From Thermodesulfovibrionales bacterium (lineage in GTDB: Bacteria; Nitrospirota; Thermodesulfovibrionia; Thermodesulfovibrionales; UBA9159), in the NCBI GenBank assembly GCA_035686305.1, contig DASRZP010000051.1, positions 1-46,429 on the forward strand: a stretch of 46,429 nucleotides of DNA. Direction: 5' to 3'. The notes beneath the pieces were generated by a model, which was given only the letters and a program-made list of their open reading frames with translations, had not been told where the DNA came from and did no database searches. Position numbers and translations under genes: made by a program. This document shows, piece by piece, positions 11,466 to 18,121 of this stretch. The number at the start of each line of letters is the position of its first letter. Position 1 is the stretch's first letter.

Positions 11466-11540
11466 TGTCGAGAGAACGGGAGGCTCTTGGGAGGGGAATC
11501 TCGGCTTTCCGGTCATTCTCAGGATCCTCGCGAGAGAAAG

Positions 11541-12029
11541 ATGGACCTTGGAAGTGTGACGAAGATTCAAAGATCATATGAATACGTGAATGACTTTCTC
11601 TATTTTGTGGTGCGTCCCGTCACCGAGGGAGAAAAGCAGGCATGGGTCTATTGTTCGGGTGTGAACATTTCCCGTTTTTCTCCCATCACGAAAGGGAGGC
11701 ATGGAATAGGAAATCCTTCCGTGCGGGCGCTTCAGAACGTCAATCACGGTGTCAGGTCTCTGGCACTATCGAAAGGGGCAAGGCCAAGGGCTCTTCGGGG
11801 CAATGACTGCGCAGGCATTACCCCTCCGAAGGATACCTGGTATACAGAGCTCCTGCTGATAGAAAATGCGTCAGAGTCATTCCCTCATGAAATGATCGAC
11901 TACTGCGTCAGAGACCTGCTCACAAGAATTTTCAGGGCCTGCCTCCTCGAACTTAAGCTGCCTGATAAGTTGCTGAAGCCTGATGAACTGCAGGTCTTTC
12001 TCGAAGACCTCTGTGTGAAATACGGTTAG
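11541..12029 (+). CDS. hypothetical protein
   Basis: A 162-residue soluble protein that I do not recognise. ATG 11541 (MDLGSVTKIQRSYEYVN) is preceded by GAGAGAAAG; a TTG at 11487 in the same frame would add 18 residues unlike the rest. The middle has a basic, Gly/Asn-rich stretch (SPITKGRHGIGNPSVRALQN) and the C-terminal third is helical with Leu-rich repeats of charge (LELKLPDKLLKPDELQVFLE). Cys residues are scattered without a metal-site spacing. It sits between the glycolytic gene and a restriction-modification locus, so it may belong to either unit. Confidence 0.5.
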   Translation: MDLGSVTKIQRSYEYVNDFLYFVVRPVTEGEKQAWVYCSGVNISRFSPITKGRHGIGNPSVRALQNVNHGVRSLALSKGARPRALRGNDCAGITPPKDTWYTELLLIENASESFPHEMIDYCVRDLLTRIFRACLLELKLPDKLLKPDELQVFLEDLCVKYG

Positions 12030-12067
12030 GCAAAAAAACACTTCATTCAAAAAGAGGCGAAGATTCT

Positions 12068-14134
12068 TTGACGACGTCCCTCAATAAGCCAAAACTCGAC
12101 AACCTCGCCGATGAAATCTGGAAATCTGCCGAGCGCCTGCGCGGCAAATTCAAAGCCTACGAATACCAAAACGTCGTCCTGCCTATAATCGTGATCCGCC
12201 GTCTTGAGTGCGTTCTGATTAAATGGCGGGAGGACAAAGCAACCGAAGTCCTCGCCAAGCGGCCAAAGCTAACCGCGAAGGAGCTTGCGAAGCTGGTGAA
12301 AGGTCTGGAGACGAGCACGGCGCCGTTTTCAAACAAGACCGATTGGACACTGCGCCGGGTCTACGAGGAAGATCATACGCTGCTTGAAGAGAACTTCCGT
12401 GCTTATATCAACGGTTTCTCAAAGAATGTTGACGATATAATCGAGCACTTCAATTATCGGGCCACCATCGGTCAGATGGTGAAGAACAACCGCCTCGCTC
12501 CGATCCTCAACCAGTACAAGGAACTGGAACTCGGCCCCGACAAGCTCTCGCCGCTTGAGATGGGCTACATATATGAGGAACTGCTTCGGCGCTTCTCGGA
12601 ACAGAGTGGCGAGGAGGCCGGAGAGCACTTCACGCCGCGCGAGGTGATCCGTCTTATGGTGGAGCTGCTCGACATCCCGATCCCCGACAGGCACCTCTCC
12701 ATCTATGATCCAGCCTGCGGGACCGGCGGCATGCTGTCTGTAGCGAAGGAACATCTGCTCGACCGCGCTGCCACTCCAGAAGAAAAGGCGAACATTGAGA
12801 AGTTTGTCACAGTTCACGGTCAGGAGATGTCACCGACCAACTACGCTATCTGTCAGGCAGACCCTCTGATCAAGGACGACAAACAGGCTAAGGTGTATCT
12901 CGGCAACTCACTTATCCCACACGATCCGCACAGCAAGGAGCCGGGGGACCAGTTGCCCGAATCCAAGTTCCGGTTTGACTTCATGCTATCCAATCCACCC
13001 TTCGGCGTGACCTGGGGCGGCAAGGATGGTTACGAAGCCGAAGCGCGCAAGCTGGAGAAGACACGTTACCGGGCCGGGATGCCTCGCGTGAACGACGGTG
13101 CGCTGCTTTTTCTGCAGACTATGCTTGCCAAGATGAAGGAGCCGGAAAAGGGCGCAAGCCGCATTGCTATCATCTTTAGCGGCTCGCCGCTTTCAAACGG
13201 CGATTGCGGTTCCGGCGAGAGCGAGATCCGCCGCTGGATTCTGGAGAACGACTGGCTCGACGCGATTGTCATGCTCCCCGACCAGCTCTTTTACAACACC
13301 GGTATTTTCACTTATGTTTGGCTCCTGCGAAACGACAAGCCAGCCGAACACAAGGGCCGCGTGATGCTGATCGATGCGCGCCAACAGTTTGAGAAGGAGC
13401 CGAAGTCATTTGGCAACAAGAGAAACCGTAGCACCGACGCGCACCGCGCCTGGATCGAAGAACGCTACCGCGACGGATGGAAGAATGGATATTCGGATGA
13501 AAACGTGAAGCTTTTCCAGCGGGAGGATTTTGCCTATCACAAAGTGAGCGTCGTCTTCTGGCAGTTCGACGAAAACGATCAACCGGCGACAATAACCGAG
13601 CCTTATGAAAAGGCCTTCACCGCCGCGAACCTGAAGAAGGAGCAGGAGTTTTACGAAAGCGAATTGACGTTCAGAGTTGCCTTGTCATTTCCGCAAGCAA
13701 AGCGCGTCGGGAATCCTTCTGAAAAAGCTAGAGGCATGAAGAAAGATTCCGGACAAGCCGGAATGACAGAATCAAAGACTGAAACAGAAACGAGGACAAT
13801 CACATTTACTCTCTCGCCTAAGGATAACGCCGCAAAGAAGTTCAAAGAGCTGATGAAAGATTCTCCAGAAATCCTCTCAGTGGAATGGACGCGCCGTCAT
13901 TACGTGAAGGACGACGAGTACATCCAACACGGCGAAGATATCGAAGCTTTCCTGAAACGTGAGATCGCAAAACCTATCATCCGCTGGCAGGACAGTCCGC
14001 AGCTCGGGTATGAAATTCTTCCGAACAAATATTTTTACCGATATCAGCCGCCCACACCAGCGAAGGAATTACTCGAAGAGTTCTGGAGGCTGGAAAAAGA
14101 AGCGGAGAAGATGCTGGAGGGATTGGCAGAATGA
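12068..14134 (+). CDS. hsdM: type I restriction-modification DNA methyltransferase subunit
   Basis: N6-adenine methyltransferase of type I systems; uses S-adenosylmethionine and is targeted by HsdS. An N-terminal helical domain (RLRGKFKAYEYQNVVLPII) precedes the catalytic domain with GEHFTPREVIRLMVELLD, the AdoMet loop YDPACGTGGML (about 212-222) and the catalytic SNPPFG (about 307-312). The start is TTG 12068; no ATG fits, and GAGG lies 11 bases upstream. Total 688 residues. Residues about 539-567 are encoded by an inserted palindromic repeat in a surface-loop position, so activity may persist. It overlaps the DUF1016 nuclease gene by four bases. No hsdR is present in the window. Confidence 0.93.
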   Translation: MTTSLNKPKLDNLADEIWKSAERLRGKFKAYEYQNVVLPIIVIRRLECVLIKWREDKATEVLAKRPKLTAKELAKLVKGLETSTAPFSNKTDWTLRRVYEEDHTLLEENFRAYINGFSKNVDDIIEHFNYRATIGQMVKNNRLAPILNQYKELELGPDKLSPLEMGYIYEELLRRFSEQSGEEAGEHFTPREVIRLMVELLDIPIPDRHLSIYDPACGTGGMLSVAKEHLLDRAATPEEKANIEKFVTVHGQEMSPTNYAICQADPLIKDDKQAKVYLGNSLIPHDPHSKEPGDQLPESKFRFDFMLSNPPFGVTWGGKDGYEAEARKLEKTRYRAGMPRVNDGALLFLQTMLAKMKEPEKGASRIAIIFSGSPLSNGDCGSGESEIRRWILENDWLDAIVMLPDQLFYNTGIFTYVWLLRNDKPAEHKGRVMLIDARQQFEKEPKSFGNKRNRSTDAHRAWIEERYRDGWKNGYSDENVKLFQREDFAYHKVSVVFWQFDENDQPATITEPYEKAFTAANLKKEQEFYESELTFRVALSFPQAKRVGNPSEKARGMKKDSGQAGMTESKTETETRTITFTLSPKDNAAKKFKELMKDSPEILSVEWTRRHYVKDDEYIQHGEDIEAFLKREIAKPIIRWQDSPQLGYEILPNKYFYRYQPPTPAKELLEEFWRLEKEAEKMLEGLAE
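13682..13768 (+). repeat. in-frame palindromic repeat element inside hsdM
   Basis: The element opens with TTGTCATTTCCGCAAGC and closes with GACAAGCCGGAATGACAG; the ends are inverted copies of TGTCATT-CCG with minor mismatch. The interior carries GGGAATCCTTCTGAAAAAGC and GAAAGATTCCGG, also partly complementary, so the 87 bases can fold into a long hairpin. Its length is a multiple of three and it encodes a Lys/Arg/Ser-rich peptide (SFPQAKRVGNPSEKARGMKK and on) between conserved HsdM segments. This is the look of a mobile REP/MITE-like repeat that has landed in a gene without breaking the frame. Confidence 0.7.
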
Positions 14135-15258
14135 AAAAAGCCGGGGACAGCACCATATTGACCGCGTCGGAATACCGGCGGTTTATTTCGGATTTAAAGA
14201 CACGGATCACGGCAGCCCGTATTTCGGCAGCCCGATCCGTGAACCGTGATTTGATCCTGCTCTATTGGGACATTGGACGGGCGATTGTAGAAAAGCAGGA
14301 ACTGCTTGGATGGGGGGAGTCTGTGATTGAATTGCTTGCCAGGGATTTGCAAGCGGCTTTCCCCGGCGCCAAAGGTTTTTCTTCGCAGAACCTTTGGCGC
14401 ATGAAACAGTTTTATGTGACACATACATCTGAAGAATTTCTCGCACAAGTTGTGAGAGAGTTGGGGAAGAAGCAATCTGGTGTATTGAAAGGTGAAAAAC
14501 TCGCACAGGTTGTGCGAGAATTAGCCGCAGCTGTTCCGTGGGGCCATCATGTCTTCCTTTTGGGGCGTATCAAGTCAGCGTCTGAGCTATTCTACTATCT
14601 CCGTGCAACCGCGCAATTCGGCTGGTCGCGCAATGTCCTGCTGAACCAGATCAAGGCTGGAGCTTATGAACGCGCGAAGATAGAGAAAAAGACGCACAAT
14701 TTTCCTGCCGTGCTGCCGGAATATCTGACTGAACAGGCTGACGAGATGCTCAAAAGCTCTTACAATCTCGAATTCCTCGGCATCCGGCGTGAGATAAGAG
14801 AGCGGGAACTCGAAGACCGTCTCATAGAACGTCTGAGGGACTTCATCCTTGAACTCGGCTACGGGTTCTGCTTTGTCGGACGACAGCATCGTCTTGCCCT
14901 CGGCAACAAGGAGTATTTCATCGACCTGTTGTTCTATCACCGATTTCTCAAGGCGCTGGTGGCCTTTGAGCTGAAAGTCGGCCCCTTCGAGCCTGAGTTT
15001 GCCGGAAAGATGGACTTCTACCTGAACCTTCTCAACGACAAGGAGCGCGGCCCTGGTGATAAGCCCTCTATCGGCATTATCCTCTGCGCTGAGAAGGACG
15101 ACGTGGAGGTGGAATATGCCCTGAAGAGCAAGACAAATCCGATTGGAGTGGCTGCGTATCATTTGCAGTCGAAGCTGCCCGGTGAGCTGAAAGGCAAATT
15201 ACCGACGGCCAAACAGCTTGCCGGAGTCGTGCGGGCGGAGATGGAGGTACGGAAATGA
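14131..15258 (+). CDS. DUF1016 (YhcG-type) PDDEXK nuclease-domain protein
   Basis: The 375-residue protein has the N-terminal helical YhcG/DUF1016 domain (NRDLILLYWDIGRAIVEKQ, GFSSQNLWRMKQFY) and a C-terminal PD-(D/E)xK nuclease core with Asp265 (EYFIDLLFYHR), Glu280 and Lys282 (VAFELK). Such proteins are common inside type I restriction-modification loci; their exact job is poorly known. It shares four bases (ATGA) with hsdM at the front and four with hsdS at the back, so the three proteins are made in coupled fashion. Two copies of AQVVREL lie 20 residues apart (about 104-130). With no hsdR here, this nuclease could be the cleaving partner, which is a hypothesis only. Confidence 0.85.
   Translation: MKKAGDSTILTASEYRRFISDLKTRITAARISAARSVNRDLILLYWDIGRAIVEKQELLGWGESVIELLARDLQAAFPGAKGFSSQNLWRMKQFYVTHTSEEFLAQVVRELGKKQSGVLKGEKLAQVVRELAAAVPWGHHVFLLGRIKSASELFYYLRATAQFGWSRNVLLNQIKAGAYERAKIEKKTHNFPAVLPEYLTEQADEMLKSSYNLEFLGIRREIRERELEDRLIERLRDFILELGYGFCFVGRQHRLALGNKEYFIDLLFYHRFLKALVAFELKVGPFEPEFAGKMDFYLNLLNDKERGPGDKPSIGIILCAEKDDVEVEYALKSKTNPIGVAAYHLQSKLPGELKGKLPTAKQLAGVVRAEMEVRK
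14440..14518 (+). repeat. two 19-bp palindrome copies 60 bp apart inside the DUF1016 gene
   Basis: CTCGCACA-GGT-TGTGCGAG at 14500-14518 is a perfect inverted repeat. A near copy, CTCGCACA-AGT-TGTGAGAG, starts at 14440, exactly 60 bases earlier. Both are read in the same frame and encode the repeated peptide LAQVVREL. It may reflect a local duplication within the gene. Confidence 0.5.
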
Positions 15259-16025
15259 ACGATACCCTCGACTCCTTATTCAAGACGCTTCCACAGAATT
15301 GGAGGCAATGTCGTCTGAAATCTGTTGCGAACATTCGTTACGGTCTAGGTCAGTCACCATCTCAGCTCGCATCGGGCGTGGCGATGGTTCGGGCGACAGA
15401 TGTTGATGCCAGGACGATTCGGACAGAGAATCTTCTCCGCGTTGATCCTGATGAATTGCCGCTGGACAGAAACCCCTACCTCAAGGCAGGCGAAATCATT
15501 GTCGTACGCAGCGGTGCATATACGGGAGATTCGGCAATTGTACCTCCAGCCTTGGAAGGTGCGGTAGCTGGATACGATATGGTGGCAACTGTGACACGCG
15601 CTCTGCCACAGTTCGTGGCCTATGGACTATTGAGCAAATACGTCTTAGAGGATCAGCTCCGGCTGTTGACCCTTCGTGCAGCTCAGCCACACCTGAACGC
15701 TGAGGAACTTGGGAGTATCGTCTTGGCAATCCCTGCAAGTCGCCAAGAGCAAAAGCGCATCGCGGCGTATCTGGACGCGAGTTGCGCGGCGATTGACGCG
15801 GCGGTGGCTGCCAAGCAGCGGCAGATCGAGACGCTGGAAGTGTTGCTAAAAACAACGATCGCCTCTGCAGTTACTCAGGGGCTGAGTCGCACTGTCACCC
15901 GAAGAGATTCTGGAGTGAATTGGTTTGGCCAAGTTCCTAAACACTGGGGCCGCGAGCATCTTAAACGATTCGCAGCACGCATTCAGACGGGTGCACATCA
16001 TCTTCAATCGTACGAGCTACTATAG
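15255..16025 (+). CDS. hsdS: truncated type I restriction specificity subunit
   Basis: HsdS directs HsdM to its DNA sequence through two target-recognition domains (TRDs). Here the 256-residue product has a first TRD (about 1-165, WRQCRLKSVANIRYGLG, GEIIVVRSGAYTGDSAIV), the central conserved helical region (QEQKRIAAYLDASCAAIDAA..) and only the beginning of the second TRD (NWFGQVPKHWGREHLKRFAA) before TAG at 16023. Family members are usually 380-450 residues. No continuation is recognisable in the next 175 bases in any frame. A half-length subunit could in principle pair with itself, as described for truncated EcoDXXI HsdS; otherwise the system is dead. Confidence 0.8.
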   Translation: MNDTLDSLFKTLPQNWRQCRLKSVANIRYGLGQSPSQLASGVAMVRATDVDARTIRTENLLRVDPDELPLDRNPYLKAGEIIVVRSGAYTGDSAIVPPALEGAVAGYDMVATVTRALPQFVAYGLLSKYVLEDQLRLLTLRAAQPHLNAEELGSIVLAIPASRQEQKRIAAYLDASCAAIDAAVAAKQRQIETLEVLLKTTIASAVTQGLSRTVTRRDSGVNWFGQVPKHWGREHLKRFAARIQTGAHHLQSYELL

Positions 16026-16084
16026 CTTTCTCGAAAATAGTGCATTGTAGTGTGATTGAAATAGGGTTATGAAGATTGATCAAG

Positions 16085-16107
16085 TTCCAGACCGGCTTAT
16101 TCTGGAA
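16085..16107. repeat. 7-bp inverted repeat upstream of the DUF1186 gene
   Basis: TTCCAGA (16085-16091) and TCTGGAA (16101-16107) flank a nine-base loop. It lies between the truncated hsdS and the DUF1186 gene, without a T-run after it, so it is more operator- or hairpin-like than a terminator. Confidence 0.3.
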
Positions 16108-16200
16108 GCGAATGTGACTATGGAGCGATAAAATTATTGGAACAGATAAGCAGGGAGTCAAGCGCCGCAGAAACATTCAAGATGGAAAAAGGAAAAAAAC

Positions 16201-17076
16201 ATGGAGAATGAGACTATACAAGATCAGATTCATGAGATAATGAGTGCCTTGGACTTTTACGACGGGGTCTACGAGCGTGAGGCGGTTGAGAAGGCTGTCG
16301 CGCTTAAAGAAGAGCTTACCCCGGGTCTGATAGACCACCTGAAGATGCTGCTGACAGATTATGAAAAGTACGAGGCGGATGATCACTATGCCCATGTTTA
16401 CGCCATGATATTGCTTGGACATTTCCGGCAGCAGGCGGCTCATGATGTAATCATGGACATCATATCTCTGCCGGAGCATGTTGTAGACAACTTCTTCGGC
16501 GATATGATTACCGAGGATTTCCACTGGATAATGTATGCAACCTGCGGAGGCAATCTTGAACGCATTAAGCAACTGGTGCTCGACAGGAACGCCTATGAAT
16601 ATTGCAGGGGCGCTGCAATGCAGGCTCTTGTGCATGCGGTTGTGGACGGCGTGTTTGAACGGGCCGCCGCCCTGGAATTCTTCAGTACTCTTTTTGACGG
16701 CGACGAAGCGGAGCCCGGCTCCTATTTCTGGAATGAAGCCGCATCGACAGTCCGCGATCTCTTTCCTTCAGAGCTGATGCCTGTTATCGAAAAAGCTTAT
16801 GAAAACGGCCTGATCTGGCCCGGATATATATCGCATGATAATTTTCTGAGAACCCTTACCGTCGGCAAAGAAAGAACTCTTAAGGAAGCAAAGACCAAGT
16901 TAGATGAGAAACTTTCACAAGAGATTCACTCACGCCTTTCCTGGTGGGCATGTTTCAGCGAAAACGAATCTCCGGCGATTACACGGATGACGAAAGCCGA
17001 TGCTAAGAGGGCCGAGAAAAAGAAGAAGAACAAGCGGAAGTTGGTCAAGAAGTCCAGGAAGAAGAACAGGCGCTAA
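16201..17076 (+). CDS. DUF1186 domain protein with basic tail
   Basis: The 291-residue protein matches the DUF1186 pattern: YAHVYAMILLGHFRQQAAHD, then LPEHVVDNFFGDMITEDFHW and a helical-repeat region (YCRGAAMQALVHAVVDGVFE, LFPSELMPVIEKAYENGLI). The fold is probably HEAT-like. Many members end in a SEC-C zinc motif; here the last 35 residues are instead strongly basic (RAEKKKKNKRKLVKKSRKKN), which could bind nucleic acid. ATG 16201 follows AAGGA by seven bases. Function of the family is unknown. It lies between a restriction-modification remnant and a toxin-antitoxin pair, so a defence link is possible but unproven. Confidence 0.7.
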   Translation: MENETIQDQIHEIMSALDFYDGVYEREAVEKAVALKEELTPGLIDHLKMLLTDYEKYEADDHYAHVYAMILLGHFRQQAAHDVIMDIISLPEHVVDNFFGDMITEDFHWIMYATCGGNLERIKQLVLDRNAYEYCRGAAMQALVHAVVDGVFERAAALEFFSTLFDGDEAEPGSYFWNEAASTVRDLFPSELMPVIEKAYENGLIWPGYISHDNFLRTLTVGKERTLKEAKTKLDEKLSQEIHSRLSWWACFSENESPAITRMTKADAKRAEKKKKNKRKLVKKSRKKNRR

Positions 17077-17086
17077 CTCGTCGAGA

Positions 17087-17118
17087 AAGTGCTATAATTA
17101 AAAAGTGCTATAATTAAA
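17087..17118 (+). promoter_or_regulatory. tandem 16-bp duplication carrying two extended -10 elements
   Basis: AAGTGCTATAATTAAA occurs twice in direct succession (17087 and 17103). Each copy contains a perfect extended -10, TGCTATAAT, with TATAAT at 17093-17098 and 17109-17114. No good -35 lies at the right spacing, which extended -10 promoters can do without. It directly precedes the antitoxin gene, whose frame opens at 17114, and is the likely promoter of the pair. Confidence 0.6.
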
Positions 17119-17121
17119 TAG

Positions 17122-17233
17122 ATGCTCATCGAACAATAGGGAAAAACTCCTCAACGCAATCATCTATTTTCTCAGCAATACGAAGTATTGCGGCAAGACT
17201 AAGCTTTTTAAGCTCCTTTACTACCTCGATTTC
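17122..17233 (+). pseudogene. frame-broken N-terminal part of the antitoxin gene
   Basis: ATG 17122 opens MLIEQ and stops at TAG 17137. In the neighbouring frame, from 17138 onward, 32 codons encode REKLLNAIIYFLSNTKYCGK and KLFKLLYYLDF, which run straight into the antitoxin frame at 17234. One surplus base at about 17137 explains both. Confidence 0.6.
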
Positions 17234-17683
17234 ATGCACTTCAGGGAAACCGGTAGGTCGGTCACCGGCCTTGATTACTATGCCTGGCAGTTTGGTCCGT
17301 TTCCCAAGGCTCTGTCAGATGATATAAGCACTCCTCCGGCTGACCTGAAGGAGAAGATTTCCATTCAGTGCGCACAGGCCGACAATAATAGCTTTACTTG
17401 CATGAAGCCGCGCAAGAAATTTGATGATACTTTTTTTACGAAAAGAGAACTAAAAATGCTTGAAAATGTGGCTTTTATGTTTAAGGAAGCCAAGGCCGAA
17501 GATATGGTTGAAGCATCGCATCTACCCAGCCATCCGTGGGATAAGACAATACATAGCAAGGGAGAAAAGGCGAAGATAGACTATACTCTCGCACTCGATG
17601 ACTCGGATGCATCACTGTCTCTCGAAGAAGTGCTCGAAAGGCTGAAAGATAAAGAGGAACTGAAAAAAGCCTTTAATGGATAG
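17234..17683 (+). CDS. SocA/Panacea (DUF4065)-like antitoxin, N-terminus displaced by a frame break
   Basis: The product resembles the Panacea/SocA antitoxin domain: GRSVTGLDYYAWQFGPFPKA after a helical start, then an acidic, Lys-rich C-terminal part. The first canonical start in frame is ATG 17234, giving 149 residues, but the frame is open back to 17114 and the upstream codons clearly belong to the domain (NREKLLNAIIYFLSNTKYC, GKTKLFKLLYYLDF). No ATG, GTG or TTG exists in that stretch. ATG 17122 would reach it if one base near 17137 were removed. So the gene is either broken by one inserted base, or the base is a sequence error. Its stop overlaps the partner gene by eight bases. Confidence 0.75.
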   Translation: MHFRETGRSVTGLDYYAWQFGPFPKALSDDISTPPADLKEKISIQCAQADNNSFTCMKPRKKFDDTFFTKRELKMLENVAFMFKEAKAEDMVEASHLPSHPWDKTIHSKGEKAKIDYTLALDDSDASLSLEEVLERLKDKEELKKAFNG

Positions 17684-17963
17684 AGGCACGATTCTTTATC
17701 ACAGGGCTTTCGAGTTCAAGGATGGAGAAATCGGCCAAAAGTTATTGATTGTTCTGAATACCCCCCAAAATGATGCGCCCTACCTTTGCTGCAAGACGAC
17801 CTCGAAAATGAAATATGGCATTGAGAAAGAAGGCTGCCATAGCAGCAAGAATATCTATGTCTTGAATCCGAGTCCGCAGGGTTTCAAGGAAAAGACATGG
17901 ATCCAGTTTCATGAGATCTACGAGTTCGACAGCCGCCTATTCGGCAAGCTCATTCCGAGGTGA
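17676..17963 (+). CDS. toxin-like partner of the antitoxin, C-terminus cut by a frame break
   Basis: A 95-residue product beginning MDRGTILYHRAFEFKDGEIG and LLIVLN, a pattern like the first strands of MazF/PemK-type SH3-barrel toxins ('RG.I.....F.DG....R..LVL'). It continues with CCKTTSKMKYG and WIQFHEIYEFDSRLFGK. The gene overlaps the antitoxin stop by eight bases, as in toxin-antitoxin operons, and proteins of this type occur next to SocA/Panacea antitoxins. It stops early at TGA 17961; sequence for the rest of the protein follows in shifted frames to 18068 (separate entry). The toxin assignment is inference from context and weak similarity; the family is not one I can name. Confidence 0.6.
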   Translation: MDRGTILYHRAFEFKDGEIGQKLLIVLNTPQNDAPYLCCKTTSKMKYGIEKEGCHSSKNIYVLNPSPQGFKEKTWIQFHEIYEFDSRLFGKLIPR

Positions 17964-18068
17964 GCTTGATGTAAAGGGAAAACTTCCGGTCAAATTGTTA
18001 AGGCCATTGTAAATTGCGTGAAGAAGTCGGAAGATATTTCAAAATTTCATCTGTCGCTATTAAAATGA
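17964..18068 (+). pseudogene. out-of-frame remainder of the toxin-like gene
   Basis: After the early stop, the +1 frame reads GELDVKGKLP (about 17961-17991). The original frame then resumes without stops as GQIVKAIVNCVKKSEDISKF and HLSLLK, ending at TGA 18066-18068. Two opposite single-base shifts, near 17960 and near 17992, would restore a protein of about 130 residues. The coding character of the tail (helix with KAIVNC..KSEDIS) makes a true gene end at 17963 unlikely. Confidence 0.55.
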
Positions 18069-18121
18069 AAGGGCGGCAGCCTTGAATCCCCCGGATGACG
18101 CCGACTTACTGACACCAGCAC

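Follow-up and report, generated by a model that had tools for sequence, protein, structure and literature searches.

Truncated specificity subunits and DUF1016-family proteins have both been described in connection with type I systems. In NgoAV of Neisseria gonorrhoeae, an HsdS that ends at a stop near residue 201 is still active, its target being the palindromic sequence GCAN8TGC, which it methylates (PMC6789123), and a YhcG gene beside the type I cluster of Methanosarcina acetivorans was noted in 2005 (PMC1189080). The DUF1016/YhcG family is listed by PADLOC as a candidate defence protein, and in the part of the literature that our search spanned, Kosinski 2005 was the only paper found on DUF1016 in connection with type I operons, and none was found on DUF1016 inside hsdM-hsdS operons. 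Both systems bear on a three-gene operon in the stretch of DNA analysed here, a contig region of 46,429 nucleotides from a Thermodesulfovibrionales bacterium that we refer to as the window. NgoAV shares with this operon a truncated HsdS consisting of one target-recognition domain (TRD) and the central region, but has kept its other subunits and has proven palindromic methylation (PMC6789123), whereas methylation by the window locus is a possibility suggested by analogy. The M. acetivorans locus shares the association of YhcG/DUF1016 with a type I system, but is a single neighbourhood case (PMC1189080), whereas placement of the gene between hsdM and hsdS recurs in 17 related loci in our analysis. 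The features of the window locus are as follows.

hsdM, 12068..14134, plus strand: type I N6-adenine methyltransferase subunit, 688 aa, TTG start, ORF intact (Pfam PF12161 and PF02384; PADLOC PDLC03029 over 9-686; relatives 63-89% identical).
DUF1016/YhcG gene, 14131..15258, plus strand: predicted PD-(D/E)xK nuclease, 375 aa, putative accessory of a type I locus (PF17761 and PF06250).
hsdS', truncated, 15255..16025, plus strand: TRD1, central helix and ~31 residues from the start of the second half; true hsdS sequence up to ~15993, with ~10 out-of-frame residues after it.
Remnant of a radC-like gene, 15994..16050, plus strand: last 18 codons (HIIFNRTSYYSFLENSAL) and stop, forming the deletion junction together with the end of hsdS'.
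Palindromic repeat copy, in frame inside hsdM, 13683..13768, strand not assigned: inverted-repeat arms, with further copies in the genome.
Probable acquired island holding the operon, 11466..18121, between pfk and mqnA, which are adjacent in genome G004.

All three ORFs of the operon lie on the plus strand and overlap by 4 bp of the ATGA type at both gene boundaries, in agreement with a preliminary description of this DNA. PADLOC labels the trio as a type I methyltransferase, PDC-S02 and type I specificity. Pfam matches comprise HsdM_N (E 3.5e-16) and N6_Mtase (E 6.4e-55) in HsdM, DUF1016_N (E 7e-39) and YhcG_C (E 5.4e-60) in the middle protein, and a single Methylase_S domain (E 3.6e-6) in HsdS', which covers only positions 16-253 of 434 of its best PADLOC specificity profile. 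HsdM, DUF1016 and the remaining half of HsdS look intact. The components of a complete type I system are only partly present: the locus has an HsdM with HsdM_N and N6_Mtase, and lacks a two-TRD HsdS and an HsdR of the same family. As the preliminary description had reported, no hsdR is found behind the trio or anywhere in the window. Type I systems are not expected to perform classical restriction without HsdR.

The middle gene had been described as a PD-(D/E)xK protein with intact D, E and K, and this proved correct. Its catalytic motif E241-D265-E280-x-K282 is complete, and E241, D265 and K282 are invariant among 19 homologues, with E or D at position 280. The combination of DUF1016_N, YhcG_C and the E-D-(E/D)xK residues places the protein in the DUF1016/YhcG nuclease family (PADLOC PDC-S02), for which we found no close solved structure. 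It has 7 private changes at strongly conserved positions, in the upper part of the range among 14 homologues, and its gene is the only DUF1016 gene found in its own genome. Plasmid searches showed DUF1016 to be common on plasmids.

The layout from which this operon could have been derived is provided by its relatives. Scanning species genomes with the window HsdM gave 182 relatives, of which the best 80, mostly 63-89% identical, were kept. These come from MAGs and isolates labelled Nitrospirota, delta-proteobacteria, Verrucomicrobia, Chloroflexi, beta/gamma-proteobacteria, Spirochaetes and others, a taxonomic spread indicating that the HsdM family is widely transferred. The common layout is hsdM, an optional DUF1016 gene, an hsdS of ~445 aa, 0-3 cargo genes, an hsdR of ~975 aa and often a radC-like gene of ~220 aa. 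Among the best 80 of the 182 relatives, 60 loci allow a judgement on HsdR, and 59 of them have it. Of the 21 loci without it, 20 have less than 5 kb of contig after hsdM, and in the remaining one, L091, hsdM itself is broken. In most loci of this HsdM family (L013-L092), a radC-like gene is paired with hsdR and lies directly behind it. Loci such as L015, L062, L036, L043 and L067 have the order hsdM-DUF1016-hsdS-hsdR-radC-like and share gene order and overlaps with the window, their HsdM being 76-83% and their DUF1016 64-74% identical. They differ in having a full-length hsdS, an hsdR and a radC-like gene, all of which the window locus would have lost by deletion.

The same survey bears on the role of the DUF1016 gene. 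The preliminary description had proposed either a decaying type I system or a compact methylase with a simple nuclease. The latter would be a restriction system by design, in which HsdM and a half-HsdS methylate DNA and DUF1016 replaces HsdR as the restriction nuclease. It is consistent with three intact, overlapping ORFs and with intact nuclease residues. However, among the best 80 of 182 relatives, DUF1016 is directly behind hsdM in 17 loci, and in 12 of these it accompanies hsdR rather than taking its place. The other five give no intact example without HsdR: four run off the contig within 2 kb, and the fifth, L022, is the only one of the 17 that lacks hsdR on a contig extending more than 2 kb further, and its hsdS is broken. 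Recurrent R-less hsdM-DUF1016-hsdS loci with an intact hsdS were thus not demonstrated among the 17 other loci. Since relatives carry DUF1016 together with HsdR, the protein is best regarded as a putative accessory of complete type I loci and not as a substitute for HsdR. The half-HsdS moreover appears to be a deletion product, with a radC remnant behind it. Taken together, a compact system by design is highly improbable and nothing suggests a purpose-built one, whereas the reading as a decaying type I system is supported by the radC remnant at the end of hsdS and by the relatives with hsdR and full-length hsdS, among them loci with DUF1016 in the same slot. As separate observations, more distant DUF1016 genes (31-33%) lie between hsdS and hsdR in 4 further loci, and L053 (3009-6616) combines a DUF1016 gene behind hsdM (up to 82% identical) with a second, distant one (32%) that follows hsdS.

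What remains of hsdS can be delimited closely. HsdS' is 64-81% identical to TRDs of relatives and aligns with residues 22-215 of 3okg and 8-201 of 5ybb. The structure alignment and a predicted model place a complete central helix at residues about 163-208; confidence in the AlphaFold models was modest (mean pLDDT 63.7 and 64.6), and they were used for secondary structure and rough fold only. The protein therefore has the complete TRD1 and central helix of an NgoAV-like half-HsdS, which bears out the earlier statement that one TRD and the central region are present. That account had missed that the protein continues for about 31 residues into the second half. Its residues ~216-246 resemble the start of this half in L017 (77% over 31 residues), L028 and L021, and the match ends at IQTG, at ~15993. 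Judged from these alignments, the start of a second half marks HsdS' as a truncated full-length HsdS. The protein has one TRD and one conserved region, lacking the C-terminal conserved region, and its last ~10 residues read out of frame through the radC remnant.

This remnant is the key to the origin of the truncation. A blastx search of the DNA beyond the hsdS homology against the ORFs of all relatives matched about 30 radC-like proteins, in every case at residues 203-220, the C-terminus, corresponding to window positions 15994-16047, which are followed by TAG. A radC-like profile built from 34 proteins and run against the six-frame window gave a single significant match, at the junction (19.0 bits, E 8.9e-5), compared with a best score of 7.9 bits in 20 shuffled control windows. 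The strand, reading frame, order, position and stop codon of the remnant are all consistent with a deletion from hsdS to radC, and both flanks of the gap are retained in order and strand, hsdS' to ~15993 and the radC-like C-terminus at 15994-16050. Comparison with four intact loci shows 4076-4129 bp to be missing.

Because the hsdS homology ends where the radC-like C-terminus begins, in the order of the relatives, one deletion would have fused hsdS' to 'radC and removed hsdR, and the trio is very probably the remainder of a horizontally acquired type I locus after a single internal deletion. The ancestral locus would have had the layout hsdM-DUF1016-hsdS-hsdR-radC-like, in which DUF1016 would act as an accessory nuclease accompanying the complete system. 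A single deletion of ~4.1 kb would then have joined hsdS codon ~246 to radC-like codon 203. It would have removed hsdR entirely, deprived hsdS of its second half and spared only the very end of the radC-like gene, and loss of HsdR would have ended classical translocation and restriction. Three points weigh against this reading: the radC remnant is only 18 residues long, about 2% of the draft genome is missing, which leaves a small chance of an hsdR elsewhere, and HsdM has no excess of private changes.

The junction could also be an artefact, if a full locus existed in the population or read set and hsdS was joined to radC by the assembler. The draft nature of the assembly (147 contigs) and a join within one locus, in the right order, are compatible with such an error. 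On the other hand, the skipped part is on no other contig, where it would usually be expected if sequenced, and no long repeat is evident at the junction, which shows only a possible 4-bp CACA identity, inferred from the relatives. We consider an artefact improbable.

An internal deletion also agrees with the rest of the genome, a 3.23 Mb draft that is 97.7% complete. Searching it with the HsdR of L015 gave no true counterpart of the window's family elsewhere in the assembly, so the search for an hsdR belonging to the trio that the preliminary description had proposed came out negative. The nearest sequence, an HsdR on contig C39, is 29% identical over about 200 residues. HSDR_N matches occur on C39, on C106 and, weakly, in a 131-aa frame on C4. 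A detached hsdR elsewhere in the genome was rejected as an explanation, since the C39 and C106 matches belong to other type I loci with their own hsdS. On C39, the HsdR (1017 aa) is encoded directly behind its hsdS, with hsdM present in the same locus, and C106 holds a 941-aa HsdR followed by an hsdS running off the contig. An invertible or split hsdS was likewise rejected, as no second half of the window hsdS was found elsewhere in the genome.

These other loci have features of their own. The C39 locus (L125, G000:C39:8000-24000) is apparently complete and has two extra genes between hsdM and hsdS, encoding a nucleotidyltransferase-like protein of 199 aa and a protein of 351 aa, by eye AbiE-like; its hsdR is followed by a metallopeptidase-like gene. 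The HsdS of this locus shares 43% identity with the window TRD1 in its second TRD, and the two half-sites may be alike. The hsdR-hsdS pair on C106 (L126) and an hsdM near the end of C129 (L127) could be one type I locus split across contigs.

Whether the products of a deleted locus retain a function is a separate question. One outcome of the deletion, rather than an alternative to it, would be an orphan methylase, in which two half-HsdS pair through their central helices and, together with two bound HsdM, methylate a bipartite palindrome made of two TRD1 half-sites. The complete TRD1 and central helix of HsdS', the intact HsdM and the activity of truncated NgoAV HsdS on a palindromic target (PMC6789123) are in favour of such an enzyme, as is the existence of a one-TRD HsdS in a complete locus, L013. 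This locus, from a Thermodesulfovibrionia MAG, is the closest by HsdM (89%), and its HsdS is also half length (249 aa). However, L013 still has hsdR, the radC-like gene and, in its HsdS, the C-terminal conserved region; it lacks DUF1016, and its TRD is different. As HsdS' is without that conserved region, a natural half-HsdS like that of L013 was rejected, and its absence counts against an orphan methylase as well. In addition, the ~31 residues of unfinished TRD2 and the ~10 out-of-frame residues could spoil folding or pairing. The second truncated, R-less locus, L022 (Candidatus Riflebacteria MAG), resembles the window in having hsdM-DUF1016-hsdS' with a truncated hsdS, but differs in its breakpoint: its hsdS is only 165 aa and is followed by other genes, and even the central helix is lost, as decay would predict, and a search for a radC remnant there gave nothing convincing. 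Overall, an orphan methylase is possible but doubtful, and the genes are more likely decaying passengers than a methylase with dimerised HsdS halves. It is very unlikely that the deletion created a methylase-plus-nuclease pair, in which palindromic methylation by a half-HsdS dimer would govern a DUF1016 nuclease that is no longer an accessory of HsdR.

HsdM carries 2 private changes at strongly conserved positions, mid-range among 71 homologues. With no excess of such changes, decay is not visible in this subunit, and one has to suppose either that the deletion happened recently or that the remnant is still in use. The repeat inside hsdM (arms TGTCATTTCCGC / GCCGGAATGACA) is in frame, adds about 30 aa in a variable loop and is missing from the HsdM rows of relatives displayed in the alignment. 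More than a dozen near full-length copies of this dispersed palindromic repeat are present in the genome, so hsdM has probably resided there for some time. The HsdM proteins of L019 and L031 have other insertions in the same loop, which seems tolerant of insertions. Plasmid searches found no close relative of this HsdM.

The surroundings of the operon suggest how it may have arrived. In G004 (L105), a genome of the same family, pfk is followed directly by mqnA in the same orientation as in the window. Since these genes are adjacent there, the 6.6 kb between them in the window is probably an acquired island, with one empty site seen. Besides the operon it holds a gene of unknown function, a DUF1186 gene and an antitoxin-like pair. 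The DUF1186 gene (16201-17076) is directly behind the operon and has a counterpart in only one of 20 relatives (G002, 50% identical). Positions 17234-17963 encode a Panacea/SocA-like antitoxin (149 aa) and then, with an 8-bp overlap, a 95-aa protein with no Pfam match; the two are a possible toxin-antitoxin pair.

The window locus derives by deletion from a system of a known kind and is a broken relic, or at most a DNA methylase left over from it. It can accordingly be dropped as a candidate for a compact, "hsdR-less" restriction system, a short radC remnant having betrayed the deleted genes. What the comparison documents in addition is a type I family that has been transferred widely. DUF1016 repeatedly occupies the slot between hsdM and hsdS in this family, and HsdR accompanies it in every intact locus that can be judged. 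For the DUF1016/PDC-S02 family, this makes a role as an add-on to type I systems more likely than one as a replacement nuclease.
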